From assembly GCA_003670925.1 (NCBI GenBank), contig QWQG01000086.1, positions 1 through 43,129 of the forward strand: a stretch of 43,129 bases of DNA, given 5' to 3'. Positions 13,223-43,129 of the stretch are shown piece after piece. The notes under the pieces are model-generated. The model did not search any database, was not told where the DNA came from, and worked only from the letters and a program-made list of their open reading frames with translations. Numbering within the stretch: the stretch's first letter is position 1; every line of letters starts with the position of its first letter. This DNA comes from Planctomycetota bacterium (lineage in GTDB: Bacteria; Planctomycetota; Planctomycetia; Planctomycetales; Planctomycetaceae). Both the position numbers and the translations under genes were made by a program.

Positions 13223-14263
13223 TCAAATCATCCGCTCGATCACCGTGACACCGTTGCCTGGAAACAGGTGCATTTTGGGCAACAACTCTGCGGCCTGAGT
13301 CAGTGTGACTCGATCGCTGATCAGTAAGTCGGGACGTAGCACGCCTGAAGAAATCATGCGTAACATGCGGCTGTATTTAAACGCCTGCATTCCGTGACTG
13401 CCAACAATTTCCAGTTCATTCCCGATGACGGCACTCATGGGAACCGGCGGATCGGCGTCCGATCCAAGCATCAGCCCGATTTGCACATGACGTCCACGTT
13501 TGCGAAGGCATTTTATGGAATTCCAACAAGTCGCCCGACTCCCCAGTGCATCCAGGGAGACCTGTGCACCACCGCAGGTTGCGTCTTTGATGGCCGCGAT
13601 CGGATCCGTTTCCGAAGCATCGATAACGACGGCCGCTCCGCAGCGTGCGGCGAACTCAAGTCGGTCACGCCGAATATCCACCGCAATGACTTGGGCGCCC
13701 ACCGCGGCCGCGATCATCACGGCAGACAGCCCCACACCCCCACATCCGTGCACCGCCACCCAGTCGCCGGGCTGTGTCCGCCCTTGGTCAACAACCGCTC
13801 GAAAAGATGTGGCAAATCGACAGCCCAAACTGGCCGCCGTCACGAAGTCGATCTCCTCGGGCAATGCGACGAGATTTACGTCCGCGTGTCGGATGGCCAC
13901 AAACTCGGCAAACGCTCCCCACTGTGTGAAACCCGGCTGTGTGTAACGATCACAAATCTGCTGATTGCCGCCCACACATTGTGCACAAGTGCCGCAGCCA
14001 CAACAGAACGGAACGGTCACGCGTTGACCGCTTGACCAACGTTTGACTGTATTTCCGACCGCGACGACTTCGCCGGCCAGCTCGTGTCCCGGCACATGGG
14101 GGAGGTGCACATCGGAATCATGTCCCATCCAGCCATGCCAATCGCTGCGGCACAGTCCACAGGCGCGAACAGCGATGACCGCAGCGTCCGCTGCCGGGAT
14201 AGGATCATGCACGTTTCGAATTTCTAATGGCGTTCGAAACTGTTCAAAGACGGCGGCCCGCAT
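13223..14263 (-). CDS. Zinc-dependent medium-chain alcohol dehydrogenase
   Basis: A 346-residue MDR-superfamily oxidoreductase that should convert an alcohol to an aldehyde or ketone with NAD(P). Catalytic zinc ligands are C38 (GLCRSDWHG), H60 and E61 (PGHELAGE), and C148 (LGCRFATSF). Structural zinc ligands follow the canonical CxxCxxCx7C pattern at C90, C93, C96 and C104. The nucleotide-binding loop is HGCGGVGLS (172-180), and an acidic residue ends the second Rossmann strand ([10 protein letters not shown]), which favours NAD. The substrate cannot be read from the sequence. It follows dapL on the same strand with a 27-bp gap and is probably co-transcribed with it, although no shared pathway is obvious. 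Confidence 0.93.
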
Positions 14264-14289
14264 GGCGTTGACTCAGGTGTGCGAGAGGA

Positions 14290-15522
14290 TCAACCGATGA
14301 CCTTAAAGATGCGTTCCAACGCTTCCTCAACATTTTGTCGGCTGTTAAAGGCACTCAGCCGGAAATAACCTTCCCCCGCTGCACCAAAGCCACTGCCGGG
14401 TGTTCCAACAACGTGCGCTTGGCTCAGCAGCAGGTCAAAAAAATCCCAGCTCGACATATTCTTCGGCGTCTGGAGCCAGACATAAGGAGCATGTACACCA
14501 CCGAAAACCTTGATTCCTACTTTACTGAACCCTTCCCGCAGCAGGCTTGCATTCGCCATGTAAAAATCAATCAAGCTCCGCATTTGAGCTTTTCCGTCCG
14601 GCGTGTATGCCGCTGCTGCACCTTTCTGGACGACGTACGACGCACCATTAAATTTCGTTGCTTGACGACGATTCCAGAGTTGATGCAACGACACTTTCTC
14701 ACCCGACGCAGTTGTTCCCATCAATTGTTTTGGCACCACAGTCAGACCGCAACGCACTCCCGTAAAACCAATACTTTTACTGAAACTGCGGAATTCAATC
14801 GCGACATCTTTCGCACCTTCGATTTCGAAGATACTGTGCGGAATCGTCGCGTCAGAGATAAACGCTTCGTAGGCTGCGTCAAACAGAATCAAGGCATTGT
14901 TAGCGCGTGCGTAATCGACCCAGCGTTTCAGTGTCTCCTTGGACGCAACAGTGCCCGTAGGATTGTTCGGATAACAAAGATAAATGAGATCGACAGGGAC
15001 TGACGGCAGGTCTGGCACGAAGTTGTTGGCTTCGTTCCCCGGAAGATAAACAAGCCCTTCAAAGCGTCCGCTGGCATCCGCCGAGCCGGTATGGCCAGCC
15101 ATGACGTTCGTGTCTACGTAAACCGGATACACTGGGTCGGAAATGGCAATCCGATTGCCCGCGCCAAGGATGTCGAGGATATTACCCGAATCGCATTTTG
15201 AGCCATCGGAAATAAAAATTTCGTCTGCCGAAATATCGATGCCACGCGAGACAAAATCATGCTGTGCAATTGGCTCCCGCAGAAAAGCGTAGCCCTGCTC
15301 CGGTCCGTATCCTTTAAATGTTGCATGCTGCGACATGTCATCGACAGCGTCGTGCATGGCCTTGATAATAGCTGGCGGCAGGGGCTCGGTGACGTCGCCA
15401 ATTCCGAGGCGAATGATTTTTGCTGAAGGATTGGCCTGTGAAAATGCCGTCACTCGACGACCAATTTCCGGAAACAAATAGCCAGCTTTCAGTTTGAGAA
15501 AGTTTTCGTTCACTTGAACCAT
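14290..15522 (-). CDS. dapL: LL-diaminopimelate aminotransferase
   Basis: A 410-residue class I/II PLP aminotransferase that makes LL-diaminopimelate directly from tetrahydrodipicolinate. This is the one-step DAP route to lysine and peptidoglycan used by planctomycetes, chlamydiae, cyanobacteria and plants. The N-terminus ([20 protein letters not shown]) and [13 protein letters not shown] are DapL hallmarks. [16 protein letters not shown] and the PLP lysine in [11 protein letters not shown] (K249) mark the active site. ATG 15522 is preferred because AGGTG lies 9 bases upstream and the length fits. A GTG at 15534 would add four residues. The upstream gap carries the 15545-15628 inverted repeat. 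Confidence 0.95.
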
Positions 15523-26430: not shown

Positions 26431-28281
26431 TCAATCTGCGACTGTCTCCGAATGATTTGTGGGCCAAGCCCGGTGATCTCCCTGGCGAATCGTCCAGTAA
26501 CCGGGGGTAACGTCAGTTACGATTTCTCGATCACCACCAGGCCAGAGAATCTCAAGATCGACGCTTCTTGCATCGGCTAGGCCAAAATGAATTTCATTCG
26601 CACTGGCCGATTGAAAGCTACCTCCACCAACGAGATATTCACAGGCTGTTGGTTCAGTATTCATGAGCGTCACACGAGCGGTGACCGGCGTGCGACAGCA
26701 GGTTCGCCCAATGAGTCGCAGGAACAACGAAGAGCCCGCAGACTTCGTTTTATTTTGCAGAATGACGGAGGGGTCGATCTGCTGTGAAACCACCGCATCC
26801 ATGCGTCCATCTCGATCAAGGTCACCCATTGCCATCCCGCGCCCGAGCAACTCGCGATGGAAATAGTCCCCTGCTGCGTTGGAAACATCGACAAATAAGG
26901 CGTTACCCTGATTTTCAAAGAGTTGTGGCGTCATGCGGTAGGGAGCGCTGGGGCCAGACCATGTTCGATCGTTCGTATGCCCGTTAGCGACTAGCAAGTC
27001 TTTCCAGCCGTTATTGTCAACATCAAGGGAGACGACGCCAAAAGCAAGTTTCCTTAGACTTGGAGGGCCCAGCGCTGAGACTCTTGTAGCATCCTGAAAT
27101 ACAAGAGAGTCAGATGTCGAATGATTCAGGTACAGGGTATTTGACTCTCCAAAAAAATGCGTCAGGAAAATGTCAACCAGACCGTTGCGGTCCAGATCTG
27201 AGGCTGCGACTCCCATACTGGCCTGCGCGAAGCCCTGTTCGTTGAGTGCGACATTGGCGAAGACCGCCCGTTCTCTCAGAGTCACGTGATCCGGGCATAC
27301 GGGCTCTCCCTGGCTAGGCTTAATTTCAAGGCTGAAGAGAAAATTCGCCTCTCCATCATTCGCCACATAGATTTCCGGAGCAGGGTCTCCCCCAAAGTCG
27401 CAAATGACAACCCCCAATGCTTTCCCGGGTAAGGTTGATAATCCGGCCGCTCCAGAACCGTCAAGAAACCCGCCGTGTCCGTCGGAGAGCAGCAAACTGT
27501 CTGAAACACCATCAAAAAAAGACGGCGAGCAGCCTGTGTCCCCGACGTCTGGCTTGGAATCGTGACAAAGTTTGGGGTGTGTATCAGATTCCGCAACGTA
27601 GTTGGCAACATAGAGATCCAAGGTGTCGTCGGCATTCAGATCAGCAAATGCCACGCTGGAACTCCACTCAGGGACCGCCGGAATATCTGTCCCTGAGACG
27701 AATGAAAACGTGCCGTCTCCGTTGTTCACCCAGAACTGGTTCGGTCCAAATGCCGCAATGTATAGATCCTCGAACCCGTCCTCATTTGTATCTCCCACGG
27801 CACAGCCGGTGCCATAACCGTACTGCATCAGACCGGAAGCCTCGCTGCAATCACGAAATTTCATGTGCTGATGGTTGCGAAAAAGTCGACCGGGAGTTTC
27901 TTTTGACTGCAACGCGAGTGGGACACGGCATCCGTTGGTCATAAAAATATCCAGCCACCCGTCCGCATCGAAATCAAATATCGCAGATCCTCCGCCATTC
28001 ACTTCAAACAGCCGCTCCTGTCCATGCATATCGTCGTTCCTCACGAATTCGAAACCGGATTCTGCAGTGAGCATTCGGAACGACAACGAAGTGACAACGG
28101 ACGGTCCCGCAACAGGATCTGCCGAGGATTTCTCGATGATCCGAGGTGCCACAGCTGACGGAAAGGACTTTTCGGCTGGGGCGGGATCGGAGGGTAATCG
28201 CTGCTTCCCGCATCCGGCGGAAAACAACGCCAGTCCGATGAACATCGCAAACGGGCGAAAGTGTCCGCAACGAAATATCAC
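26431..28281 (-). CDS. CRTAC1-type propeller lipoprotein (FG-GAP/VCBS plus ASPIC/UnbV)
   Basis: A 616-residue protein. The start is a GTG (28281) giving a signal peptide with a likely lipobox (ALFSAGC, Cys24). Calcium-binding FG-GAP motifs recur: DFDADGWLDIF, DTNEDGFEDLY, DLNADDTLDLYVANY, DLDRNGLVDIFLT, DVDNNGWKDLLVANG and DLDRDGRMDAVVS, which predicts a beta-propeller. The C-terminal ASPIC/UnbV domain is seen as GGGSFQSASANEIHFGLADARSVDLEILWPGG. It resembles the propeller half of the fusion protein at 34631-37336 closely enough (shared segments ASMGVA, ESNTLYL, LLVANGH, ELLGRG) to be a paralogue. It is envelope-exposed by inference. It lies downstream of the TPR gene at 28427-29623. Confidence 0.9.
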   Translation of the reverse strand: MIFRCGHFRPFAMFIGLALFSAGCGKQRLPSDPAPAEKSFPSAVAPRIIEKSSADPVAGPSVVTSLSFRMLTAESGFEFVRNDDMHGQERLFEVNGGGSAIFDFDADGWLDIFMTNGCRVPLALQSKETPGRLFRNHQHMKFRDCSEASGLMQYGYGTGCAVGDTNEDGFEDLYIAAFGPNQFWVNNGDGTFSFVSGTDIPAVPEWSSSVAFADLNADDTLDLYVANYVAESDTHPKLCHDSKPDVGDTGCSPSFFDGVSDSLLLSDGHGGFLDGSGAAGLSTLPGKALGVVICDFGGDPAPEIYVANDGEANFLFSLEIKPSQGEPVCPDHVTLRERAVFANVALNEQGFAQASMGVAASDLDRNGLVDIFLTHFFGESNTLYLNHSTSDSLVFQDATRVSALGPPSLRKLAFGVVSLDVDNNGWKDLLVANGHTNDRTWSGPSAPYRMTPQLFENQGNALFVDVSNAAGDYFHRELLGRGMAMGDLDRDGRMDAVVSQQIDPSVILQNKTKSAGSSLFLRLIGRTCCRTPVTARVTLMNTEPTACEYLVGGGSFQSASANEIHFGLADARSVDLEILWPGGDREIVTDVTPGYWTIRQGDHRAWPTNHSETVAD

Positions 28282-28314: not shown

Positions 28315-28418
28315 AGAACCCCTAACAAAACCGCTGTTTGTAGCTGGATTCGCAAGAATTCAGCCCATTTTTGAATTCTTGCGAATTCAGCTACTTGTTT
28401 TGATTTGATAGGGGTCCT
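28315..28418. repeat. MITE-like palindromic element with AGAACCCCT ends
   Basis: Terminal repeats AGAACCCCT (28315-28323) and AGGGGTCCT (28410-28418, one mismatch) enclose a 55-bp palindrome (28340-28394). Its 23-bp arms differ at one base and the loop is 9 bases. Each arm contains GAATTC. The element sits between the CRTAC1 gene start and the stop of the upstream TPR gene, and it matches the element at 39770-39870. Confidence 0.85.
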
Positions 28419-28426
28419 TGGCTGGT

Positions 28427-29623
28427 TCACGGTGTTCCGTCCGGCATCCTAGCTGCAAAGAATTCCAAAATGGCTGCGGCATCCTCCATCCCCAGTTGCC
28501 GCGCCGAGCTGGCAACAGACCGGGCTCCCTTCGGATTGTCATGAGTAATCGCCGAAAGATCGACTCTCAATTTTGCAACCAATAGCGAACGCTGGCGTAT
28601 GATCTCACGTTCCTTTGACTTTTTTTGCCCAGCTAAGGCTCTGCCGAGACCCATCAGGCACACCGCATTTGGTGGATCGGTTTCCAGCATATATTGAAAA
28701 TACTCTTCTGCTTTAAGCCAGTCATTTTGATGAAGAGCCCACTCGCCCCGCAACTGTGTCAGCAGCCAAGGCTCATCTTTGCTGAATTCTGGAGCACTGG
28801 CAAACTCTTTCGCGAAGGCCGACCAGTCGTGCATGTCATAACAACTTTCGAGCAGCACGGCCAGTGTGCGCAGCTCTTTGGGGTCTTCACTGCGAAGTAT
28901 GCCAAGCTGTTGGCGAGCCTCCTTCAAACGGCCTTCGCCGATGCAGTATCGAGCGGCGGCTACCCGAAGATGGCGATTGTCCGGGTCCTTTTTAAGAAAG
29001 TCACGAACCCTCTCGCTCCCAAAGGCCGTCTGCCAGATTAACAGCGATCCAAAATAATACTGTTTCACATCATGGATGTCGGCCTGATGGTCCTGCAGCA
29101 AGCTGTGTAGCACAATTCGCCGGTCCTCCTGCCGAACCTCGACACCATAAATCAGGCTCAGCCAGTGCCTTGAATGGGCAACCTTACTGTCTGGAAGCTG
29201 ATGTCCCTGCTCCAATAATTTCAGGAATTCCTGAAAGCTGTCCTCTGCTCGTTGAACTTGATCTGTCTCTGCAAAAAGCAGTGCTTCCTGATAACGGGCT
29301 GATGGCCCATGACGGACATGTTTTGTAGGAATCTGCTGGTAACAGGCAATTGCAGTGGCGGAGTCTTTTTTCTGGGCAGCCATTTCCGCAAGTGTCATTA
29401 GCACATCAAAATCATCTCCAGGGCGGTCGTATTCTTCCTTAAACTCGGCTGCAGCTTTTTCAAAGTCCACTCGTGAGACACCTAGCGGCAACTGAGAGTC
29501 CATCGATCGAAACGTGATCAGACCACCAACCAAGACAAGAATGCACATGACTAGCAATAACAGTTGTCGCTTGCGCCGCCGCCTGACTGATTCTTTGTTC
29601 ACGCCAGTGATTGCTTCGGTCAT
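28427..29623 (-). CDS. Membrane-anchored TPR protein
   Basis: A 398-residue protein. A basic patch (SVRRRRKRQ) precedes one transmembrane helix (about 20-38, LLLLVMCILVLVGGLITF), so the C-terminus should lie outside the cytoplasmic membrane. TPR-like helical pairs follow: DFDVLMTLAEMAAQKKDSATAIACYQQIP, SARYQEALLFAETDQVQRAEDSFQEFLKLL, HLRVAAARYCIGEGRLKEARQQLGIL and EYFQYMLETDPPNAVCLMGLGRALAGQ. Such proteins scaffold complexes. It starts at ATG 29623 (a GTG at 29632 is possible) with a weak GGTG ribosome site. The CRTAC1-type gene follows on the same strand, with the element at 28315-28418 in between. Confidence 0.8.
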   Translation of the reverse strand: MTEAITGVNKESVRRRRKRQLLLLVMCILVLVGGLITFRSMDSQLPLGVSRVDFEKAAAEFKEEYDRPGDDFDVLMTLAEMAAQKKDSATAIACYQQIPTKHVRHGPSARYQEALLFAETDQVQRAEDSFQEFLKLLEQGHQLPDSKVAHSRHWLSLIYGVEVRQEDRRIVLHSLLQDHQADIHDVKQYYFGSLLIWQTAFGSERVRDFLKKDPDNRHLRVAAARYCIGEGRLKEARQQLGILRSEDPKELRTLAVLLESCYDMHDWSAFAKEFASAPEFSKDEPWLLTQLRGEWALHQNDWLKAEEYFQYMLETDPPNAVCLMGLGRALAGQKKSKEREIIRQRSLLVAKLRVDLSAITHDNPKGARSVASSARQLGMEDAAAILEFFAARMPDGTP

Positions 29624-29710
29624 ATTCGACACCGATCGTTTCGCGACGCTGAGTTCTCAAACAATGCCGTAGATGAGTCAAGTTTAGGCTGCGATGCCAA
29701 AACGATTAAA

Positions 29711-29942: not shown

Positions 29943-31139
29943 TTACATCGGCGATTTTTGAGGGGCTTGGTTAGCCCCTCCAGTTCCGCGGCAGGCATTG
30001 GCCGCCAACTGCCAACGCTTGGCCACCTCCCGCTTTCCAAGACTGGCCGCAATCGCGGCCAATTGTTCGCGAATCTCGACATTTGCAGGCTCAGTGGATG
30101 CCTGCTTAGCAGCGGCATAATATTGTTCATGAAGTTTGGTCGATGCATCTCGCGCGTCCATCTCGCGCTGCCCGGCCTCTGTCTGTCCCAGTTTCAAATA
30201 CGCCATCCCCAATTGGTAGCGCGCCTTGGTGTCATGAGGATCCTGTTGAAGGACCTTCTGGAGGGGGACTATCGCATCCTGAGCATTACCATCTGCCACC
30301 TGTTGAGCGCCATACAGCCGCAATGCCTTTGGATTATCCGGATCCGATAATAGCGATTTTTCGACGGCATCCCGTGCTTCGTCCGGTTTTCCAAGCCCGT
30401 CGTAACAGTCGGCCCTGAGAGCCCAAACAGTGGCGGTTGGCTCAGCCGCCGCCAACACTTCCAATGCCTCGGGAAATCGGTTCCGCTGGATCAACACGAT
30501 CGCGAGATCGGCTTGAATATCTGGCTGAGGAATATCCTTCCCGAGCTTTAATGCCGTCCGATAATGCTCGATCGCAAGACCAAACAGAGACTCGTCCGTG
30601 CAAATCAGCCCTAGCAGCCGATGAGGACGATGGTCGAGTGGACGAAGTTCAGCCGCTTCTGTTAACTCAAGCACGGCTTCTGACGGACTGCCGATGTCGT
30701 AATAAATTGCCCCAAGCCAACGATGCGCCTCAGCATTGGTCGGATCTTCTTGGGCTAACAAAACCAAGAGATCAGCAGCCTCTAAAATCCGACCTACTCT
30801 GTACAGAGCCTGAGATGTGAACTGCAGAACCGGAAATCTCAACTCTCCCTCGGGCCTAGTTTCAGAGAACTCCCGTAGAGCTTTTGAAACTTTTCCCGAA
30901 TCCAAAAACAAGCATCCCCTAACGAAGTGCGCGTGACTCTCAAATTCTCGGTGTCGTTCAATCTTCGCTAATGCCTCAGCAACGTTTTCAAAGTCACCTT
31001 TTCCAATGGCAGCCATGGCCCGCGAAAAAACGACAGCGGGGAGATTCTGATAGTACCAAGAGAAAACGCCGGACAAACAAACTCCACCAACAGCAATCAC
31101 GCTAAGTGTTTTGAAAGTCCGGGCAGTAAACGTCATCAT
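29943..31139 (-). CDS. Membrane-anchored TPR protein
   Basis: A 398-residue protein. One hydrophobic N-terminal helix (about residues 10-27, KTLSVIAVGGVCLSGVFSWY) is followed by multiple TPRs: AEAHRWLGAIYYDIGSPSEAVLELTEAAELRP, PHRLLGLICTDESLFGLAIEHYRTALKL, QADLAIVLIQRNRFPEALEVLAAA, WALRADCYDGLGKPDEARDAVEKSL and KARYQLGMAYLKLGQTEA. It parallels the TPR gene at 33350-34603 along most of its length (for example RRWLASTYYDLG against HRWLGAIYYDIG), so the two are paralogues. ATG 31139 was chosen: a start at 31241 would overlap the upstream lipoprotein gene by 83 bases and hide the membrane helix. It follows the lipoprotein gene with a 19-bp gap, clearly one transcript. Confidence 0.85.
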   Translation of the reverse strand: MMTFTARTFKTLSVIAVGGVCLSGVFSWYYQNLPAVVFSRAMAAIGKGDFENVAEALAKIERHREFESHAHFVRGCLFLDSGKVSKALREFSETRPEGELRFPVLQFTSQALYRVGRILEAADLLVLLAQEDPTNAEAHRWLGAIYYDIGSPSEAVLELTEAAELRPLDHRPHRLLGLICTDESLFGLAIEHYRTALKLGKDIPQPDIQADLAIVLIQRNRFPEALEVLAAAEPTATVWALRADCYDGLGKPDEARDAVEKSLLSDPDNPKALRLYGAQQVADGNAQDAIVPLQKVLQQDPHDTKARYQLGMAYLKLGQTEAGQREMDARDASTKLHEQYYAAAKQASTEPANVEIREQLAAIAASLGKREVAKRWQLAANACRGTGGANQAPQKSPM

Positions 31140-31158
31140 ATAGCAATAATTCAAAATT

Positions 31159-31644
31159 CTACTCGGTGAGCTCGAATTTGAAGCTGTTACCTTCGGTAGC
31201 AGAGACCGTCCTTTTTTCTCCCGATGTTTTTGCATCTGCATATTTGACAGGCAATACCGATTCTGGTTTCATCTCAGACGTTTTTCCACCGGACATCATC
31301 CCAATATTCTTCGACATCATCTCCTTAGCGTTCTCTTGGGTCATTACCCCAGAAGCAGAACCAGCAGATGCAGATTTCGAGATCGTGATAATGTGCTCAC
31401 CTACGATTGCGCCATCGTTCGTGTCGTAACTCGTCAATCGGAAATTCCCACTAGAGTCGGTCATGCCAGTTGCGCTTCGAGCAGCCGCAGCCGAAGAAAA
31501 TGTTACGGTGGCGCCTTCGACGGGGGCTCCCTTGAAGTTCACAACCCCATCCACAGCGAATAGGTCCGGCTTACTACTGTCTCCTCCACATCCAATAAGA
31601 CAAGCCGTTACGAGAACCATTGATCCAACCAGAACTCGAGTCAT
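31159..31644 (-). CDS. Small lipoprotein with a carboxypeptidase-regulatory-like (Cna-B type) beta domain
   Basis: A 161-residue protein. Signal peptide with lipobox LIGCGG (Cys19), then a beta-sandwich-like domain (FAVDGVVNFKGAPVEGATVTF, RSATGMTDSSGNFRLTSYDTNDGAIVGEHIITISK), which is the pattern of planctomycete carboxypeptidase-regulatory-like proteins. A Met/Ser-rich segment (TQENAKEMMSKNIGMMSGG) comes next, with VLPVKYADAKTSGEKRTV at the end. It is predicted to be lipid-anchored to a membrane and exposed outside. It follows the DUF1559 gene; a strong terminator hairpin lies between them, so read-through or a separate promoter must express it. ATG 31644 has AAGGG 10 bases upstream. A TTG at 31665 is an alternative. 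Confidence 0.85.
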   Translation of the reverse strand: MTRVLVGSMVLVTACLIGCGGDSSKPDLFAVDGVVNFKGAPVEGATVTFSSAAAARSATGMTDSSGNFRLTSYDTNDGAIVGEHIITISKSASAGSASGVMTQENAKEMMSKNIGMMSGGKTSEMKPESVLPVKYADAKTSGEKRTVSATEGNSFKFELTE

Positions 31645-31696: not shown

Positions 31697-31729
31697 AAAA
31701 AAAATCTGCAGGTCACCAAGACCTGCAGA
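31697..31729 (-). terminator. Rho-independent terminator after the DUF1559 gene
   Basis: On the minus strand a perfect 10-bp stem (TCTGCAGGTC, loop of 5, GACCTGCAGA; 31729-31705) is followed immediately by eight T (31704-31697). It stands 27 bp after the DUF1559 stop and 52 bp before the lipoprotein start. It may work as a partial terminator that sets a high pilin-to-downstream ratio. Confidence 0.88.
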
Positions 31730-31756
31730 CTATCAACAATTCACTAAGTCTCAGTC

Positions 31757-33349: not shown

Positions 33350-34603
33350 TTACCTCGCCTCATTCAGTTCTCTGAGCAAATTCCTGGCACTTACGAAATT
33401 AGGATCGATTGCCAGTGCGGCTTCAAGCCATGATCGAGCAAGTTCGGGGCGTCCCATGCGTTGTGCAAGTTCACCAAGTTGAAATCGCAGGTCGGCATTT
33501 CCAAGGTCACTGAAAGCGTTTGTGTTCAGCCTCGCGAATTCATCGACCAGTGTTTCAAGTTCCGCAAGTCGTGCAGACTGTGCTTCCGCTTCTGCGTTTC
33601 GCCCTACCAAGCGGAGGGCCTTCACCAGCTGAAATAGGATTTCAAAATTGCCTGGATGGGATGCCGTGGCGTCTTCGAGCAAACCAATCACGTTTTCGGC
33701 TTTACCCACTTCCATCTCGATCGACGCCCTTGTCAGAATGGCCGAAATAAGATGCGGATTAAGTTCCAGCGCACTGTCGGCCTTGGCGATAGCTTTTACT
33801 GGATCCCCGAGCGCGGCGTAGCACGTGGACTGCAGTGCAAAAACCGATGCAGAAGGTTTGGCATCTTGTAAAGTATCCATCGCCTTTGAATATTGCAGTT
33901 GATGAACGAGACATTCGGCGAGTTCTTCTGTGACAGCATCTCTTTCTGAGGCTGGAAGATCGCGGTGCAACGCCTCACGATAATCAAGAATGGCTTCTGC
34001 ATGACGATGAAAATCTTTTTCAATCCGGCCGCAGAGCCGAAAAGGCCGCCCATCTACAAGATCGATCTTACCAATGATTTTTAGGTGCTCAAGCGCCAGT
34101 GACATCGCGCCGAGGTCATAATATGTGGATGCCAGCCAGCGTCGTGCATCAGAGTTGTCTGCGTCCAGTTCCAATGCCTGCAGCAGCATTTGTTCAGCTT
34201 TGACAAACTGATGCATCCTGTAGAAAGCTTCTCCGCGACGGGTATATGCGGCAAGCCTTGTGTTTGGATCGTCTGTCGCCAGACCAAATTCGGAGGCCGC
34301 TGCGGCGAGTTCTTGTGATTTCAGAAACCATGTACCACGCAGCATGTGCCCGTACGATTCGAAACCTGGCGTCTGCAGCAGGAGACTGGCTTCATGCAGA
34401 ACCTTTTGTGCGTCTCCATCCGTGGCGGCAGTCATCCCATATTGGAAACGAAGCAGCGGATCTCGTCCCGTCCAAGGTAGCACCAGAAAAGTTGCGATTA
34501 GCACACCGATTGCCGCAAAAATCTTCCAGCGTCGAAGGACCCGTATCAGGGGAGTCAGCCACAACCATTTGAATTGAGTTTTGTGCACGGGAACGTATTT
34601 CAT
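33350..34603 (-). CDS. Membrane-anchored TPR protein
   Basis: A 417-residue protein. A transmembrane helix lies at about 27-44 (WKIFAAIGVLIATFLVLPW) after a basic segment. TPRs follow, including ARRWLASTYYDLGAMSLALEHLKIIG, GRIEKDFHRHAEAILDYREALHRD, VFALQSTCYAALGDPVKAIAKADSALELNP and LRFQLGELAQRMGRPELARSWLEAALAIDPNF. It is a paralogue of the TPR protein at 29943-31139. It follows the TPR-propeller fusion gene with a 27-bp gap, so the two are co-transcribed and probably work together at the membrane. The bulk of the protein should face away from the cytoplasm. Confidence 0.88.
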   Translation of the reverse strand: MKYVPVHKTQFKWLWLTPLIRVLRRWKIFAAIGVLIATFLVLPWTGRDPLLRFQYGMTAATDGDAQKVLHEASLLLQTPGFESYGHMLRGTWFLKSQELAAAASEFGLATDDPNTRLAAYTRRGEAFYRMHQFVKAEQMLLQALELDADNSDARRWLASTYYDLGAMSLALEHLKIIGKIDLVDGRPFRLCGRIEKDFHRHAEAILDYREALHRDLPASERDAVTEELAECLVHQLQYSKAMDTLQDAKPSASVFALQSTCYAALGDPVKAIAKADSALELNPHLISAILTRASIEMEVGKAENVIGLLEDATASHPGNFEILFQLVKALRLVGRNAEAEAQSARLAELETLVDEFARLNTNAFSDLGNADLRFQLGELAQRMGRPELARSWLEAALAIDPNFVSARNLLRELNEAR

Positions 34604-34630: not shown

Positions 34631-37336
34631 TCAGCGATCATCGGTGCTCAGCGATGCACGACCCTCGATCGCGACCAGCGATTGGCTTGTGGCAAGATGG
34701 TGGTACGATTGGGTTTCACCAGACGGCCACTCGATCCGCAATTCATCAATTGTTGCGGCGTCTCCCAAACCACAGTGGACGAATCGCTCACTTGACGACG
34801 CATAACTGCCGCCTGCAGCTAGTTCAAAAAAAGCGGTCTGACCATCGATCATCACTCGAATCCGAGTTCCGACGCCATCGCGGCAACTCCGAACACCGCA
34901 AAGTCGCAGCGCAAGAAAATGCCCCACAGCGGCAGTTTCGTTTGTCAGCAAGGATACCGGGGTATCCAGATGCGACACGCAAAAATCTGGCTGCCCATCC
35001 CGATTCCAGTCGAGCACCGCTAGCCCGCGGCCGAGCAGCTCAGATTCGAAATACCCGCCAGCATCCGATGATGATAATTCTTCGAATTCAGGCGCGAAAT
35101 TTGTGCCCGTATTGCAAAAGAATTGAGGTCGCATCCGATACAGGTCACCAAAGGCTCTGTGGTCCCCAATGTGGCCATTCGCGACAACCAGATCGAGCCG
35201 CCCATCAAGGTCTGCATCCAAGAATGCTGTTCCAAAGCCTAGCATCGGATAACTTGGTTTTGCCAAGCCGCTGACCAACGTTGCATCTGCGAAGATCCCG
35301 TTCGGCTGACTAAGATAGAGAGTATTCGATTCATTGGAAAAGTTAGTCACAAGCAGGTCCGAGAATTCGTCACCATTCAGATGACCGATAGCGACACCCA
35401 TACATGCTTGGGATTTTCCATCCCGATCAAAAGCCAAACCGATATTGACTGCCTGTTCACTCAGATGAGTCACGCGACTGTCAGGGACGGATTCATTCAG
35501 GAAGCAGAAGTTGGGCTGCTGATCATTCGCGACAAAGAGGTCCAGTAAGTTGTCGGCGTTGAGGTGAGCGGCAACGACCCCGAACCCGGGACCTTGAGAG
35601 ACTTGGATGCCTGAGGTTGCGGACTGATCTTCAAAGCGTCCGTCACCGAGGTTGATCAGCAGGCGATCTTGGGTGGCGTCAAAACTTGACGGAGAGCAGG
35701 TCACTTTCACGTTCTGGTTTTCACAAATAGTCTCGAATACCAATTTCCCTTGGATGTAGTTGGAAACGTACAGGTCTGGGAACGCATCTCCGTTGAAATC
35801 TCCCGACGCACAACTGCTGGTCCAAGCATCTCCAGCAGCAGTTTCCGGGCTCGTCATCTCCGTAAAAGTCCCGTCGCCGTTTCCCTGATACAGCCGATTG
35901 GGCCCGATGTTGCCAAGGTACACATCATCGAACCCATCGTTGTCAAAATCGGCTACGATCACACCTTGACCGAATCCAGTGTCACCGAATCCCGATGCGG
36001 TCGTTGAATTCCGGAATGAGCGGCCTCGCAAATTTCGAAACATTTGATCTTCAAAGCGACCATCGGTCCCCGGGGGCCAAGTACATCCCTGAGGGAAATA
36101 CAGATCGGGCCAGCCATCGTGATCAACGTCCAGAACCCCCACGCCACCTCCTGTGAATTCCTGCATACGTTGTCCTTCCGTACTTGGGTCATCTGCGTTG
36201 AAGTAGCCAAAATCAACTCCGACCACTGTGGCGTCATTCCGGAAGCGAATCTTTCTGTTTGCCCTGATTCCCTCAGAAACTGACGCATCTGTAGGTGGGC
36301 GCCATCCGGGAAAAGCTTCGCGATTGAATTTCAAGGCCGGGTTTAAGTCCGTGGTGGTGTTCGCGGCTGCGATAATTTGGCGATATTTGTCGGCAAACTT
36401 AAGATCCGATGTCATCCGCAGCATAAGTCGCGCATCCGAAATCATCGCCGTCTGACCCCATTGTGCGGCTTCCGGGAACCGACCAAGAGTATACAGGGTT
36501 TCGACGAGTCCCCAGAGGAGGGCCGGGGATTTGCTTGTTTTCGTGTTTGCCACGGTATTAAAAGATTTTCGCAGAGTTTCGGCACGCTTTAGAAATGGCT
36601 TGCCTTCGTCCTTACCTAGGAGTTGTCCCAATCGCAGATTTAGATTGCGATCAAATGGATTCAGGCATACGCCCTCCAAGAAACAACGGGTGGCCATTTC
36701 GGGATTGCCGGACTGCTGGCACCAATCACCCCTGACAAACCAAATTCCCGGATGGGATGCGGCATCTTCGGGAAGGTTCCGGTTCCAGTCGGGAAGCCGC
36801 GACAGGCTAGTTGCGAGTTCTGCGTACCCCTTAACCACATGGGCTTCCAGATCATGTGGGGATGAGGCAAGAAGCCTCTCAATCAATTCACGTGCCTCAT
36901 CTGTTTTGCCATTGCGGAAAGCAATTTTGGCGAGTCCAATCAGGGGAGCCAGATCCTCAGGCGACTCGCGATGCCAATCCTGCAGCATGGATTCATCCAA
37001 CAATTGATTTGGATCCCCAGTGAACTGGAACAAACTGTCCTCACGCACTTTCTGCTGCGACAGAATCTTGCGGATCAAAGGCGCAGCTTCCCAAGAGCGG
37101 CCCGATCGAATGAGGAGCAAGGCCAATTGTTCGCTGGCCATGGGTTGCTCCGGTACCAGCCGAAGTTCTTCGAGAAAATTCTTGTGGGCCATTGAAAATT
37201 TTCCTGCAGCAAGTGCCTTAAGCCCTATCTTCAATTGATCTCCCGGAAGGACCGGCACAGTCCGAAATCGGAGCCAGATACAGATCCCGACGACTGCCAC
37301 AGTAACAAGCCATTTCAAAGGATGACGACGGAACAT
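34631..37336 (-). CDS. Natural fusion of TPR and CRTAC1-type propeller (FG-GAP plus ASPIC/UnbV)
   Basis: A 901-residue protein. An N-terminal hydrophobic helix (about 8-22, KWLVTVAVVGICIWLRF) is followed by TPR-like units up to about residue 330 (LKIGLKALAAGKFSMAHKNFLEEL, SEQLALLLIRSGRSWEAAPLI, LIGLAKIAFRNGKTDEARELIERLLA, LVETLYTLGRFPEAAQWG). A propeller region then carries DVDHDGWPDLYFPQG, DFDNDGFDDVYLGN, DFNGDAFPDLYVSNY, DADLDGRLDLVVANGH and DWNRDGQPDFCVSH. The C-terminal ASPIC/UnbV domain reads LAAGGSYASSSERFVHCGLGD and LRIEWPSGE. ATG 37336 has GAGGTG 5 bases upstream. It joins in one chain the two protein types encoded separately by its neighbours. Confidence 0.9.
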   Translation of the reverse strand: MFRRHPLKWLVTVAVVGICIWLRFRTVPVLPGDQLKIGLKALAAGKFSMAHKNFLEELRLVPEQPMASEQLALLLIRSGRSWEAAPLIRKILSQQKVREDSLFQFTGDPNQLLDESMLQDWHRESPEDLAPLIGLAKIAFRNGKTDEARELIERLLASSPHDLEAHVVKGYAELATSLSRLPDWNRNLPEDAASHPGIWFVRGDWCQQSGNPEMATRCFLEGVCLNPFDRNLNLRLGQLLGKDEGKPFLKRAETLRKSFNTVANTKTSKSPALLWGLVETLYTLGRFPEAAQWGQTAMISDARLMLRMTSDLKFADKYRQIIAAANTTTDLNPALKFNREAFPGWRPPTDASVSEGIRANRKIRFRNDATVVGVDFGYFNADDPSTEGQRMQEFTGGGVGVLDVDHDGWPDLYFPQGCTWPPGTDGRFEDQMFRNLRGRSFRNSTTASGFGDTGFGQGVIVADFDNDGFDDVYLGNIGPNRLYQGNGDGTFTEMTSPETAAGDAWTSSCASGDFNGDAFPDLYVSNYIQGKLVFETICENQNVKVTCSPSSFDATQDRLLINLGDGRFEDQSATSGIQVSQGPGFGVVAAHLNADNLLDLFVANDQQPNFCFLNESVPDSRVTHLSEQAVNIGLAFDRDGKSQACMGVAIGHLNGDEFSDLLVTNFSNESNTLYLSQPNGIFADATLVSGLAKPSYPMLGFGTAFLDADLDGRLDLVVANGHIGDHRAFGDLYRMRPQFFCNTGTNFAPEFEELSSSDAGGYFESELLGRGLAVLDWNRDGQPDFCVSHLDTPVSLLTNETAAVGHFLALRLCGVRSCRDGVGTRIRVMIDGQTAFFELAAGGSYASSSERFVHCGLGDAATIDELRIEWPSGETQSYHHLATSQSLVAIEGRASLSTDDR

Positions 37337-37616
37337 GAACACACCTCAGACGCTTGAAAAGTACTGACTCTACCGTTTTCTTTGTGACAGACAACCCGCA
37401 AGGCAGGCACTCATACTCCCCGCGACCGAAACTGAGTCCGGCGAGCGGAGCGGCGTAAGCACTTCGGTACCTTGTTTTTTTGGTACCGGCAAGCTGACGC
37501 ATGCCGTTCACCAATTGCCTCACTCGTGACCGCGCGAAGTCTGGAGGCAAATCGATATCAGCCGTGAAACGCAAGCACCGGTTTTTCCCGCATTTAACAT
37601 CGTCTTAAACCGTGGT
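37337..37616. other. Gap with a CGGTACC hairpin
   Basis: 280 bp between two propeller genes. A perfect 7-bp inverted repeat (CGGTACC, 37465-37471; GGTACCG, 37482-37488) has a 10-base loop that is almost all T on the plus strand. The hairpin is short, and no T-run follows on the minus strand. No gene is seen here. Confidence 0.5.
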
Positions 37617-39470
37617 TTAGCGGTCGGGGTTGGGCTCACGAAGGACGAGAGTTTCCTGGATGTCAACATCGCTTAAATTCTGTGTGACTCCTGAAGGCCA
37701 GTGAATCTCAACGCTGGCGACTGATGGCGCATTGCCGACGCCGAAGAAAAGTCTGGGGTCATTCGCTGAAGCATAGCTGCCGCCGGCCTTAACCAGACGG
37801 ATCATTTCTGGCTGCTCCGCTGCGACCCGGATTTTGACATATGCACCGACGGCGTCGCGATTACTCCTAATGCCGATCAGTCGAATGACCAGCGAGTGAT
37901 TTGTGCCGGAGTGATTTTCAAGGACGGCCACCGGTTCATTGTTGCACGAAACCACGAGATCCTGATCGCCATCATTGTCAAGGTCACCACAGGCCACTCC
38001 CCGTCCCATATGTGGCGTCTGCATGTAATCTCCTCCTGCCGGAGCCACGTTATGGAACCGAGGTCCGGGGTCATTCTGAAACAAGAGCGGCGGCTGTCGC
38101 AAAGGGGCATTCTTCGGGTAGCGGATCACATGCCCATTCGACACAAAAACGTCTTCGTCTCCGTCGCGATCGAAATCAAGGAAGACAGTTCCCCAGCCGA
38201 CCGCCAGTCCCCCGACTGCCGTGACACCCGTCGAACGGCTGACATGTTGAAAGAGGAAGTTGCCGTCGTTGCGATACAACGAGAAACTCTCCCGTTCAAA
38301 ATTTGAGACCCAAAGATCAGGCCGACCGTCCAGATTGTAGTCGCCCACATCAACCCCCATGCTGCCTTCAGGCGTCCCAGAATCGCTGAGACTGGTACCA
38401 CTTCTCGTCGAGGCATCTTCCAGATTGCCATCCCCAGTATTGCGATACAGAAAGTTGGGCACAGTGTCGTTCGCCACATAGATGTCGATGTGGCCGTCAA
38501 GATCGACGTCTGCCATCAGCACTCCCAGCCCCTTGCCATCCGTGCGTAACTGCAGTTTCGTGCTGTAATCAGAAAATGTGCAGTCGCCGTTGTTATGATA
38601 AATTATGTCCGGCAGGGGTTCGAATCTGCGCGGAGGACAGACTTCTCGAAGGCCAATCTCAGGACCGTCACAGATCGGATTGTTGTCCGGTGACCAGTTG
38701 ACGTAGTGAGCCACATAAAAATCCGGATTGCCATCGCCATCCACATCGCCACAGGCCGCACTGCTACTCCATTGGTCGTCCGTCAGACCTACTTGGTGAG
38801 CAATCTCGACAAAAGTGCCGTCTCCGTGATTCTGGAAAAACAACAGGCCACCGTACCCGGTCACCAGCACGTCCCCAAAGCCGTCGTTATCAAAGTCCGT
38901 GATCGACGCCCCGTGACTATACCAAGGTGCGGTTGCCACTCCGGCCGCGTCAGTTGCTGCCGAAAACTTCCAGTCCCCGTGATTTCTGAAAAGACCCGGC
39001 GACAGCCCGACAACTTTCTTTTCGGATTCGTACTTTCCGCCACCGGGAACAAACAGATCGACATCACCGTCGTTGTCGTAGTCGATCATTCCGACGCCTC
39101 CTCCAAGAGACTCCAGAATTGCGAAATAGCCGGATTCTTCACCGTTGTGATAAGTGAAATTGATTCCGGCCTTGTCCGCCATCTCAGAAAAGGCGGCGAT
39201 CGAGGGGACAGTTTCGACTGGCCCTGGCTCACTGACTTTCGGAGTCCGGTTGTTCTGTGATTCGGTTTGCTGCTTCGCTGGTGCCTTCGGTGAATCCGGA
39301 GTGCATCCGAGGAATGCCATGACAAGACAAAAGACGATGAACAGATTGGACGATGATCGTAGGCAATCTCCACCATCCGCTGCAAAACCGCACTCGCGCG
39401 ACGCGAGCGCCAAGATGTCAGCAACGGTCTTCAGAGTCGCGGACGACAGTTTCTTTTTGAATTCCTCCAA
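37617..39470 (-). CDS. CRTAC1-type propeller protein (FG-GAP plus ASPIC/UnbV), probable lipoprotein
   Basis: A 617-residue protein when started at the TTG at 39470. Seven or more calcium-binding FG-GAP motifs are seen: DYDNDGDVDLFVPG, DFDNDGFGDVLVTG, DVDGDGNPDFYVAHY, DVDLDGHIDIYVAND, DYNLDGRPDLWVSNF, DFDRDGDEDVFVSNGH and DLDNDGDQDLVVSC. The ASPIC/UnbV domain follows (KAGGSYASANDPRLFFGVGN, VEIHWPSGV). A hydrophobic segment with a lipobox-like LVMAFLGC lies at about residues 43-56, after an odd charged lead of about 40 residues. The true start may therefore lie further in, but no ATG with a ribosome site is in frame there. The TTG itself overlaps a GGAGGA sequence. It is preceded by the TPR gene at 39860. 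Confidence 0.85.
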   Translation of the reverse strand: MEEFKKKLSSATLKTVADILALASRECGFAADGGDCLRSSSNLFIVFCLVMAFLGCTPDSPKAPAKQQTESQNNRTPKVSEPGPVETVPSIAAFSEMADKAGINFTYHNGEESGYFAILESLGGGVGMIDYDNDGDVDLFVPGGGKYESEKKVVGLSPGLFRNHGDWKFSAATDAAGVATAPWYSHGASITDFDNDGFGDVLVTGYGGLLFFQNHGDGTFVEIAHQVGLTDDQWSSSAACGDVDGDGNPDFYVAHYVNWSPDNNPICDGPEIGLREVCPPRRFEPLPDIIYHNNGDCTFSDYSTKLQLRTDGKGLGVLMADVDLDGHIDIYVANDTVPNFLYRNTGDGNLEDASTRSGTSLSDSGTPEGSMGVDVGDYNLDGRPDLWVSNFERESFSLYRNDGNFLFQHVSRSTGVTAVGGLAVGWGTVFLDFDRDGDEDVFVSNGHVIRYPKNAPLRQPPLLFQNDPGPRFHNVAPAGGDYMQTPHMGRGVACGDLDNDGDQDLVVSCNNEPVAVLENHSGTNHSLVIRLIGIRSNRDAVGAYVKIRVAAEQPEMIRLVKAGGSYASANDPRLFFGVGNAPSVASVEIHWPSGVTQNLSDVDIQETLVLREPNPDR

Positions 39471-39859: not shown

Positions 39860-39870
39860 TCAGGGGTTCT
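39770..39870. repeat. MITE-like palindromic element with AGAACCCCT ends, overlapping a gene stop
   Basis: Perfect 9-bp terminal repeats (AGAACCCCT 39770-39778; AGGGGTTCT 39862-39870) enclose a palindrome with 23-bp arms (39790-39812 and 39823-39845) and a 10-base loop. The right end overlaps the stop of the TPR gene, so its last residues (KNP) are read from the element. It is the best copy in the window. Confidence 0.9.
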
Positions 39871-41134
39871 TAGTCTCAGCGAGAGCCTTTGCGAGTTCGC
39901 GGTGTATCTTCTCTTTTTCCAGTCTTCCGATGCGGTGATAGTGATCGGCGAGCGCATTGTGAGCTGCCGCGTAACGTGGATTGAGATCAATAAGATTCTG
40001 CAGCCAGCGAAGACCTTCCGCAGGCGATTCATGATTCATTGCAATCATGGCAATTTCGTAGAGCACATCAGACTTGTTAGCCGTCTGATCAAGGCTATCG
40101 ATCAATTCCTGTTTCCGCCGCAGTTGTTTTTCTGCTGCCGTAACCTGCTTAAACATCTCGGCAGCCTGTTCGGTCATTCCTGAAGCCTGCAGCGCCGATG
40201 CCAGCGAATACTGAATTTTGGAATCGCTGGGTTTTTCATCGTGCAGTTGCTGAAGAGTCTCCAAGGCCTGCTTGACGTCGCCGTCCATCAAGAGAGTTTT
40301 GGCCATCGCAAACTTGGCGTCCTGATTTTCAGAGTCCACGTTCATAATCTTTTGCAGCACTGATTTTGCTTCGTTTACTTTGCCATTCGACAGAAGCCAT
40401 TCGGCCCATTGAATCAGCAGTTGACTGTCGTCAGGCGTTTCCTTAAGACACTGAAGGAACTGTATTTCCGCCTTGTCGTATTCATGCAGTTCGCGAAGAC
40501 AAACAGCCATGGCGCGGCGAATTCGTGTCTTACCAGGAACTAGGCTGAGGGCTTTCTCGTAGCATGTTGCAGCCTCGCCCCAGCGTTCCGTGTCCTGTAA
40601 CCAAAGTCCTCGCAGTTCGTGGGGCCTTGGGTCCTCCGGAAAGTCCGCTTCCCATACATTGAGGAGTGAGGCGGCTTTTGCAAACTGAACATTAACGAAA
40701 TACCCCGTGACGAAGGATTCACAGATTTCCTGCCCGTCATCACGCGGATCCAGCATCAGTTGTTTCAGATGAAGTTCTGCCTCGCGCGTCTGCCCGGACT
40801 TTGCCAAAGCCAACCATTGCTCTCGTTCAAGCTGCTCGCGGGGTACGCCAGAGTCCCAAGCGGTCTGCAGGTTTTCTCGCACGAGGTCGAATTTGCCTTG
40901 TCGTCGGTAGGCTTTTACAAAGAGCAAGTGTGTCTGCCCTAAGCGGTCCCACTCCGGAATCGACTCTAACCAACCGAGAGCCAACTCGGCATTTCGCTCT
41001 CTCAGGGCTCGCTCGGCAAAAAACGTCCGAATAGTCCGGTTGAGGTTCGGGTAGGCAAAAAATAAGCCGACAGCCATCAGGCCTATGCACACCCAGCGGA
41101 CTGGTTTTCTACGAAATGATCTGAACAGCCGCAT
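39860..41134 (-). CDS. Membrane-anchored TPR protein
   Basis: A 424-residue protein. A basic patch (RSFRRKPVR) and one hydrophobic helix (about 13-27, RWVCIGLMAVGLFFAY) come first. TPR units follow: ERALRERNAELALGWLESIPEWD, FVKAYRRQGKFDLVRENLQTAW, GLWLQDTERWGEAATCYEKALSLVPG, RAMAVCLRELHEYDKAEIQFLQCL, AEWLLSNGKVNEAKSVLQKI, AKTLLMDGDVKQALETLQQL and AAAHNALADHYHRIGRLEKEKIHRELAKAL. It probably works with the propeller gene downstream. ATG 41134 was chosen (GGAG 8 bases upstream); a start at 41245 would place 37 unlikely residues before the helix. The last codons come from a repeat element. Divergent from the haem/propeller gene at 41543. Confidence 0.87.
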   Translation of the reverse strand: MRLFRSFRRKPVRWVCIGLMAVGLFFAYPNLNRTIRTFFAERALRERNAELALGWLESIPEWDRLGQTHLLFVKAYRRQGKFDLVRENLQTAWDSGVPREQLEREQWLALAKSGQTREAELHLKQLMLDPRDDGQEICESFVTGYFVNVQFAKAASLLNVWEADFPEDPRPHELRGLWLQDTERWGEAATCYEKALSLVPGKTRIRRAMAVCLRELHEYDKAEIQFLQCLKETPDDSQLLIQWAEWLLSNGKVNEAKSVLQKIMNVDSENQDAKFAMAKTLLMDGDVKQALETLQQLHDEKPSDSKIQYSLASALQASGMTEQAAEMFKQVTAAEKQLRRKQELIDSLDQTANKSDVLYEIAMIAMNHESPAEGLRWLQNLIDLNPRYAAAHNALADHYHRIGRLEKEKIHRELAKALAETKNP

Positions 41135-41542
41135 TCCAACAGCTCCAACATCGCCTTTTGCCCGAGACGGCTGCTCCGAACAGTCTGGTAAGGCGAGTGT
41201 AACAGACGCGATGTCGGAAGCGAATGACTGACTCCAGAAAAACATTCGTGTTCTTAGGCAATTGGCCGAGAAATTCTTCCTAGTTCCGTCGCTAAATGCG
41301 TACGACTCCGCAACCTCCCTGCACCCTTGCCAATCGTCTGGTCACTGAAATTCGATCACGCTCGGAATTTATCCTCGGCGGGGCTATAATTCAAAAAGTC
41401 AGCGTACGTCATGCGTCAACTTGGCGATACAAAACGAGGTGCTATTGGGCTAACGACGCGTGCACGATCACTCGACAACTGCGTTTGTTCAACAGGATTC
41501 TTCCCGGATGACAACATTCGATTACATCATAAGTACGGTGAA
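41135..41542. other. Divergent intergenic region
   Basis: 408 bp between two diverging genes, so promoters in both directions are expected. On the plus strand a perfect TATAAT lies at 41385-41390, but no good -35 box stands 16-18 bp upstream. An in-frame ATG at 41411 could extend the plus-strand gene by 44 residues. Confidence 0.45.
41385..41390 (+). promoter_or_regulatory. Candidate -10 box (TATAAT)
   Basis: A consensus -10 hexamer in the divergent gap, 153 bases before the preferred start codon of the downstream lipoprotein gene. The -35 region is poor, so the call is tentative. Confidence 0.3.
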
Positions 41543-43129
41543 ATGACAATTGCCCCGATTAGCTTCGTTGCCGTCAGACGACGTCTTCACGCTATTGTGC
41601 TCTGTGCTGCGATCCCGCTGTTTTCTGGCTGTATCGAACACCCACAGGATCAAGGCCTGACAGAAGGTGCCGAGGAGACGTCGAATGGGGGGGGGCCCAG
41701 CGAGGTTGCTGTGCCAGACGCGGAGGTGGCTCAGCAGGTGAAAGTTTTCTGCGGTGCCTGCCATGCGGTGCCGATACCAGACAGCTTTCCAAGGCAGGCG
41801 TGGTACGACGAAGTCAGACAAGGGTTCAATTTTTATTACGAATCCGGTCGGACGGATCTCATCCCGCCACGTCAGGCTTCCGTCGTCGCGTGGTATCAGC
41901 AACGGGCGCCCGAGAAACTTGCGGAACCGGACGAGTCAGAAACAGGCGAGTCGCCGGTCAAGTTCGAATTGCGTCCGATCGACGTCGTTGTGGACTCGCC
42001 TGAACTCGTGGCCGTCTCGGTGCTCCGCATGGCGGATTCTGACTCAGGTGCCTCGCAATTGTGGGTCAGTGATATGCGACGCGGCGTCGTCGTGAAATGT
42101 GATGTGAATGATCCAACGCATGCCGAGGTGCTGCGGATCGGTTCAAATCCCGCCGGAACATGTGACGTTGATCTTGACCAGAACGGGAGCCTAGATCTCG
42201 TCGTGGCAGACCTTGGAAGTTTTCTTCCGGAAGATCACAGCAAAGGTCAAGTGCTCTGGTATCCGGACGGTAAGAGCAACGATGTACAGGCGGGGCCTCG
42301 CGTGATCCTAGATTCAATCGGACGTGTGGCCGACGTGCAGCCCGGTGATCTGGACAATGATGGCGACCAAGATCTTGTCGTGGCTGAATTCGGGTGGCAT
42401 AAAACGGGGGGTATCCATGTGCTGTTCAATGATGTGAGCCCGACTGGTGAGCGTACATTCCGCGATCTGAAAGTGGACTCAAGGCCCGGTACGATTCATG
42501 TTCCCGTGAGAGACCTAGATGGTGACGGGCGACTGGATTTCGTCGCTTTGATCAGTCAGGAGTACGAAGTCATTGAGGCGTTCATGAATCGAGAATCAGG
42601 TTTCGAGAAAATTCAAATCTACGCCGCCCCTGATCCGTCGTATGGGTCGAGTGGGATTAAGCTCACTGACTTTGATGGTGACGGTGACGGCGACATCCTG
42701 TATACCGTTGGTGATACTTTCGATTCGTATCTGATCAAACCTTACCACGGCATATGGTTGCTGCGAAATGAGGGTCAGCTCAAATTTAAACCACAGCGGA
42801 TTGCTGCGATGCCTGGGGTGCTGCGGGCCGTGAACGCCGATCTAGACGGTGACGGCGATCAGGACATCATTGCTGCCGCACTCCTGTCACCAATTGCTGT
42901 GTCTGGAAAAGCACCAACGGATTTGCAAGCGTTGATCTGGCTGGAACAAACCGCTGACGGCGAGTTCGCGCGGCACGTGATTCAGCGAGGACTGCCGATC
43001 TATGCGTCGTTAGCGGTCAGCGATATTGACGGTGATTCGGATCTGGATATTGTGGCAGGCTGCTTCCATGCGGAACTGGTTGACCCACCTTCACTGCTGC
43101 ATGTGTTTGAGAATCTGAGACAGGGGAAG
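41543..43129 (+). CDS. Partial lipoprotein with a CxxCH haem motif and FG-GAP/VCBS repeats
   Basis: The frame is open to the right edge (529 codons seen, no stop), so the gene is partial. The signal peptide has a lipobox-like LFSGC (Cys30). A Gly/Pro-rich linker containing a G9 run follows. Next is a single c-type haem motif, CGACH (70-74), in a short cytochrome-like segment (VFCGACHAVPIPDSFPRQAW). Propeller repeats start near residue 210: DLDQNGSLDLVVADL, DLDNDGDQDLVVAEF, DLDGDGRLDFVAL, DFDGDGDGDILYTV, DLDGDGDQDIIAA and DIDGDSDLDIVAGC. A haem-plus-propeller protein in the envelope could be an electron-transfer or redox-sensing surface protein. A start at 41411 is also in frame, but it would hide the signal peptide. 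Confidence 0.85.
   Translation, partial: MTIAPISFVAVRRRLHAIVLCAAIPLFSGCIEHPQDQGLTEGAEETSNGGGPSEVAVPDAEVAQQVKVFCGACHAVPIPDSFPRQAWYDEVRQGFNFYYESGRTDLIPPRQASVVAWYQQRAPEKLAEPDESETGESPVKFELRPIDVVVDSPELVAVSVLRMADSDSGASQLWVSDMRRGVVVKCDVNDPTHAEVLRIGSNPAGTCDVDLDQNGSLDLVVADLGSFLPEDHSKGQVLWYPDGKSNDVQAGPRVILDSIGRVADVQPGDLDNDGDQDLVVAEFGWHKTGGIHVLFNDVSPTGERTFRDLKVDSRPGTIHVPVRDLDGDGRLDFVALISQEYEVIEAFMNRESGFEKIQIYAAPDPSYGSSGIKLTDFDGDGDGDILYTVGDTFDSYLIKPYHGIWLLRNEGQLKFKPQRIAAMPGVLRAVNADLDGDGDQDIIAAALLSPIAVSGKAPTDLQALIWLEQTADGEFARHVIQRGLPIYASLAVSDIDGDSDLDIVAGCFHAELVDPPSLLHVFENLRQGK
41687..41695 (+). repeat. Run of nine G in the haem/propeller gene
   Basis: Nine consecutive G at codons 49-51 (AAT GGG GGG GGG CCC), between the signal peptide and the haem motif. 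A one-base slip would cut the protein off before the haem motif. Confidence 0.9.

Follow-up and report, generated by a model that had tools for sequence, protein, structure and literature searches.

The gene studied here lies on the minus strand (34631..37342) of a stretch of planctomycete DNA of 43,129 nucleotides, referred to below as the window, and encodes a TPR-CRTAC1 fusion protein of 903 aa. According to the open reading frame list, the frame starts with GTG at 37342 and contains no internal stop codon. The boundary given previously, 34631-37336, does coincide with an in-frame ATG at 37336, but the open reading frame extends beyond it to the GTG. From the N- to the C-terminus, the chain consists of a membrane helix, a TPR solenoid, a seven-bladed FG-GAP propeller and an ASPIC/UnbV domain. 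The helix (residues 8-26, 37265..37321, minus strand) is predicted from the AlphaFold2 model and a hydropathy of 1.95, and is devoid of a lipobox. The solenoid (residues 35-326, 36365..37240, minus strand) is recognized by Pfam TPR families at residues ~70-300 (TPR_16, TPR_19) and forms consecutive helices in the model. The propeller (residues ~365-815, 34898..36250, minus strand) has four FG-GAP_3 matches (E 4e-33), matches the CRTAC1 structure 9etn and carries four DxDxDG calcium-type motifs, found by a motif scan at residues 405, 465, 709 and 778. The UnbV_ASPIC domain (PF07593, residues 823-889, 34676..34876, minus strand; E 2e-16) scores 60.1 bits, above the Pfam cut-off of 23.4. The proposal of the sequence-only reading that one gene joins TPR and a CRTAC1 propeller is thus borne out by a single 903-aa frame with Pfam domains of both types.

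The fusion is located within a cluster of minus-strand genes, named here by their lower coordinate, in the order 39860 (TPR), 37617 (propeller), 34631 (the fusion), 33350 (TPR), 31757 (DUF1559), 29943 (TPR), 28427 (TPR), 26431 (propeller) and 24217 (HEAT). The same reading held that these neighbours encode both protein types as separate genes, and Pfam confirms it, as 28427 (28427..29632) and 39860 (39860..41245) contain TPR only, and 26431 (26431..28281) and 37617 (37617..39470) contain FG-GAP and UnbV_ASPIC only. Each split pair is arranged with TPR ahead of propeller, as are the domains of the fusion. Both split propellers have a lipobox (at residue 24 in 26431). The TPR-only gene 33350 (33350..34603) directly follows the fusion after a gap of 27 nt and is a paralogue of another TPR-only gene, 29943 (29943..31241), with which it pairs in the TPR tree (100/98). 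Between 33350 and 29943 lies a DUF1559 pilin-like gene (PF07596, 31757..32791), of a family often found near fusions and split propellers in relatives. A terminator-like hairpin with a T run (31703-31731) directly downstream of this gene would divide a fusion-33350-DUF1559 unit from 29943-28427-26431. Genes 28427 and 26431 are separated by 145 nt that include a strong inverted repeat of 20 pairs (28344-28390), which makes their co-transcription in the window uncertain. A further FG-GAP gene (41411-43129), divergent from 39860, runs off the contig end, and no ASPIC domain was seen by Pfam in the part present. The genome as a whole holds 13 UnbV_ASPIC genes, about 42 TPR frames and 33 DUF1559 matches.

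The fusion was matched in 27 of 30 relatives, and a frame of ~970-1050 aa encoding a full-length homologue is present in most genomes of the genus. Full-length homologues, often several per genome, were found in the genus, in the family (several in genome G018) and in Pirellulaceae; named records with them include Rhodopirellula baltica, Roseiconus, Neorhodopirellula, Rubripirellula, Fuerstiella and Pirellula. In the whole phylum, 89 of 118 genomes gave a propeller match, and full-length fusions were found mainly in 5 of the 7 other own-family members and in genome G122, these phylum-wide fusion counts being lower bounds with few candidates scored per genome. Since the same architecture recurs in ~970-1050-aa homologues of many species, the gene is no chance join; it belongs to an old family with multiple copies, and is not a rare join. 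In many same-genus genomes (L059-L069, e.g., L063:8852-10108), a divergent TPR-only gene on the opposite strand, collinear with the fusion TPR domain, adjoins the fusion.

The FG-GAP propeller, the UnbV_ASPIC score and the CRTAC1 fold place the fusion in the CRTAC1/ASPIC-UnbV family, with which it shares the seven-bladed FG-GAP propeller followed by a C-terminal ASPIC domain. Murine CRTAC1 (9etn) superimposes on the fusion model with Z 40.7 and an rmsd of 2.4 over 458 residues. However, the alignment with the CRTAC1 chain is confined to residues 362-895, and the fusion differs from this family by its N-terminal membrane helix and by a TPR solenoid predicted to pack on the propeller. In the PVC superphylum, membrane-coat-like proteins also combine a propeller and an alpha-solenoid in one chain in Planctomycetota, but they require the propeller to be N-terminal to the solenoid (PMC2799638). 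We rejected this assignment for the fusion, in which the order is reversed (solenoid 35-326, propeller 365-815). Bacterial integrin-type propellers resemble the fusion in their seven blades with Dx[DN]xDG calcium motifs (PMC3192720); the fusion differs by its ASPIC and TPR parts, neither of which is mentioned in the text of that paper. A planctomycete CRTAC1/FG-GAP gene was also described between hydrazine-synthase-like alpha and beta-gamma genes, in clusters where the haem subunit of one clade has cytochrome c554 domains (PMC12758564), and split propellers of our set likewise neighbour c554-type multihaem genes. In contrast to those clusters, neither the neighbourhood of the fusion nor the cluster in the window yielded a hydrazine-synthase-like gene, and the term TPR is absent from the text of that paper. 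In the literature searched, we found no functional study of bacterial ASPIC/UnbV proteins in connection with TPR, Planctomycetes or multihaem cytochromes.

The sequence-only reading interpreted the fusion as a Rosetta stone, that is, as a sign that the separate partners bind each other. TPR has been named among the promiscuous domains that confound this method, as has WD40 (PMC2248599), thus Pfam labels alone are insufficient for such a conclusion. We compared gene neighbourhoods at about 120 loci, annotated with a TPR profile for which reversed sequences yielded no match at a score of 15 or more. In the own-class set, a co-directional TPR-only gene was found within 400 nt of 21 of 29 split propellers, of 3 of 31 fusions and of 13 of 302 other genes. 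When all Planctomycetota loci were considered, the co-directional adjacent TPR gene was present for 26 of 42 split and 3 of 58 fused propellers (Fisher 4e-10, an optimistic value as the genomes counted are related). Many split TPR and propeller genes even overlap, by 1-46 nt. Among the three fusions that depart from this pattern is the one in the window, which is followed by 33350. Fused TPR domains and neighbouring separate TPR genes are nearly mutually exclusive.

The TPR halves were then compared beyond the level of the shared repeat. A profile built from the TPR domains of 27 fusions covers 28427 in one stretch, profile positions 9-365 of 421, with 87 bits, and it behaves similarly with split partners from other loci (L058:3035, 3-383, 108 bits; L078:5986, 10-399, 149 bits; L073:10616, 2-366, 79 bits). 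By contrast, for 15 control TPR proteins encoded in the same genome away from propellers, no match was longer than 160 profile positions. The TPR-only proteins stop approximately where the fusion passes from TPR into the linker. The product of 39860 gives only two overlapping, out-of-order pieces, the best of 34.5 bits. As regards the propellers, that of the fusion is 40% identical to 26431 and 35% to 37617. Thus, for 28427 and 26431 both halves are homologous to the fusion beyond the repeat type, through the collinear TPR and through propeller identity and tree position, while for 39860 and 37617 this does not hold, the TPR similarity being repeat-level and non-collinear. A Trp motif in the last TPR, GRxxEAxAW, was considered as a signature of a common interface and rejected: it is kept in the main fusions, but occurs in 6 of 30 split partners versus 3 of 15 controls.

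A carefully built propeller tree unites 27 of the 29 fusions (98/95), with L077 and L081 standing apart, and places 26431 together with its G006 homologue as the sister of the 27-fusion clade (91/86). A quick tree of wider sampling puts 26431 among the fusion lineages instead (86 SH-aLRT), so that this propeller may either descend from a time before the fusion or have split off afterwards. The propeller 37617 is distant from the fusion propellers. In the TPR tree the same core appears, with 24 fusions (100/98), and 28427 pairs with its G006 counterpart (100/100), which mirrors the propellers. A separate outside group (99) consists of four TPR-FGGAP proteins from Acidobacteriota and Verrucomicrobiota, which suggests an independent fusion in the same domain order. 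Across 27 non-redundant split pairs, moreover, propellers that resemble each other tend to have TPR partners that do so as well (Mantel rho 0.33, p 0.0015), the signal being weak within the own class (p 0.046).

AlphaFold2 modelled the fusion from a 52-sequence alignment with a pLDDT of 92.0 and a pTM of 0.90. If the two domains were free to rotate, a pTM of about 0.62-0.65 would be expected for a chain of this length; a pTM of 0.90 requires the inter-domain error to average ~3-5 Å. On the basis of this value, the TPR and propeller domains are predicted to be packed tightly in a fixed orientation. The structural matches listed, which single-domain hits fill, included no prominent solved structure that shares the TPR-propeller arrangement. 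According to a survey of solved structures, contact across separate chains is also made by 71% of domain pairs less than 30 residues apart on a chain, and by 38% of those further apart (PMC529437); the linker in the window fusion, of ~38 residues, is above this threshold.

Adjacency and overlap of the split genes, the near-absence of a TPR neighbour of fusions, end-to-end TPR homology, the propeller tree and the predicted packing lead us to accept the Rosetta-stone reading in part, as a functional link, at the family level and for 28427/26431. That TPR and propeller belong together as a functional unit is well supported for the family. A specific link was not upheld for 39860/37617, where the propeller is homologous but the TPR similarity is that of generic repeats. 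Our preferred reading, to which we assign a probability of roughly 0.6, is that the fusion is the single-chain form of an envelope unit that occurs as two proteins in relatives and, in the window, as 28427/26431, the two binding through the same interface, and that this unit serves as a docking scaffold. The N-terminal helix would anchor the fusion in the cell envelope, and the TPR solenoid, presumably facing outward, would pack on the putatively calcium-binding CRTAC1 propeller with its C-terminal ASPIC domain to give one rigid, two-lobed body. The split form would pair a TPR protein anchored in the membrane with a propeller that is itself a lipoprotein, meeting at the surface that is internal to the fusion. 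Other envelope proteins might dock on the unit, the candidates being DUF1559 pilin-like proteins and, for some split forms, multihaem cytochromes.

It is possible, though in our view doubtful, that the two parts share a pathway or compartment without binding, the TPR of the fusion being an anchor with an extended arm and the split lipoprotein propeller anchoring itself. This would agree with the window, where the fusion carries a membrane helix but lacks a lipobox and both split propellers have lipoboxes. We considered lipobox versus membrane anchor as a clean difference between the classes, and rejected it, as in the whole set the lipobox separates them poorly (18 of 59 fusions, 24 of 94 split). 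A low-confidence TPR-propeller linker at 200-228 in the model of an Acidobacteriota fusion, L169 (pLDDT 67.8, pTM 0.53), would also fit; this model, built on a thin alignment with four fusion rows only and with its C-terminal ~480 residues poorly predicted, yielded no sign of packed domains. The fixed orientation implied by the pTM of the window fusion and the near mutual exclusion of a fused TPR and an adjacent TPR gene both argue against independent parts.

Another alternative, which we judge unlikely, is that the TPR lobe mainly partners a third protein, either a multihaem cytochrome or a DUF1559 pilin-like protein, with the propeller riding along. Multihaem cytochromes, a number of which end in a C-terminal TPR of their own, are encoded in split propeller operons of several phyla, and in Planctomycetota such cytochrome genes lie within three co-directional genes of 14 of 42 split propellers. 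However, the corresponding number for fusions is 0 of 58, and the window cluster has no multihaem gene. DUF1559 genes, abundant in the own genome, were found within three genes of 39 of 58 fusions and 28 of 42 split propellers, but also of 55 of 248 background genes of the same loci. The remaining explanation, an artefact of promiscuous domains in which common TPR genes land anywhere and the fusion is uninformative about its neighbours, is favoured by the named confounders TPR and WD40, by the many TPR frames of the genome and by the generic similarity of 39860, but it is improbable and largely refuted for the family by the enrichment of TPR genes next to split propellers relative to the other genes at these loci, by the end-to-end homology of 28427 and others and by the apparently independent fusion in the same order, and it stands for 39860/37617.

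If the envelope unit we prefer exists, the multi-copy planctomycete CRTAC1/ASPIC propellers would have a dedicated TPR partner, fused or separate, which offers a concrete interaction to test, and the pairing would link the ASPIC/UnbV, DUF1559 and multihaem-TPR families in one envelope system. It is conceivable, if rather speculative, that TPR-CRTAC1 is the core of an undescribed one- or two-chain envelope complex in Planctomycetota and Acidobacteriota that holds DUF1559 proteins and, when split, multihaem-TPR cytochromes, perhaps for extracellular electron transfer or surface recognition.

Several other loci deserve mention. In Acidobacteriota and Verrucomicrobiota (L158, L168, L169 and partly L167), a five-haem protein of ~960 aa with a C-terminal TPR is followed by a propeller of ~590-620 aa and then by a TPR-FG-GAP protein of ~1120-1220 aa. 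A seven-gene cluster (TPR, multihaem, propeller, a protein of ~190 aa, DUF1559, propeller, TPR) is present in the own genome (L045, contig C229) and in L138, and is kept gene by gene at 44-58% identity. Two nearby genes are 86-93% identical, and these near-identical flanking genes make the Candidatus Kuenenia label of the L138 record doubtful. Ammonium-transporter genes that overlap split CRTAC1 propeller genes were noticed at L044:7850-9148 and 13289-14917 and at L068:14300-15601. The overlaps on contig C171 of the own genome measure 4 and 32 nt, and the first of these pairs is kept in a same-genus genome at 85% identity.
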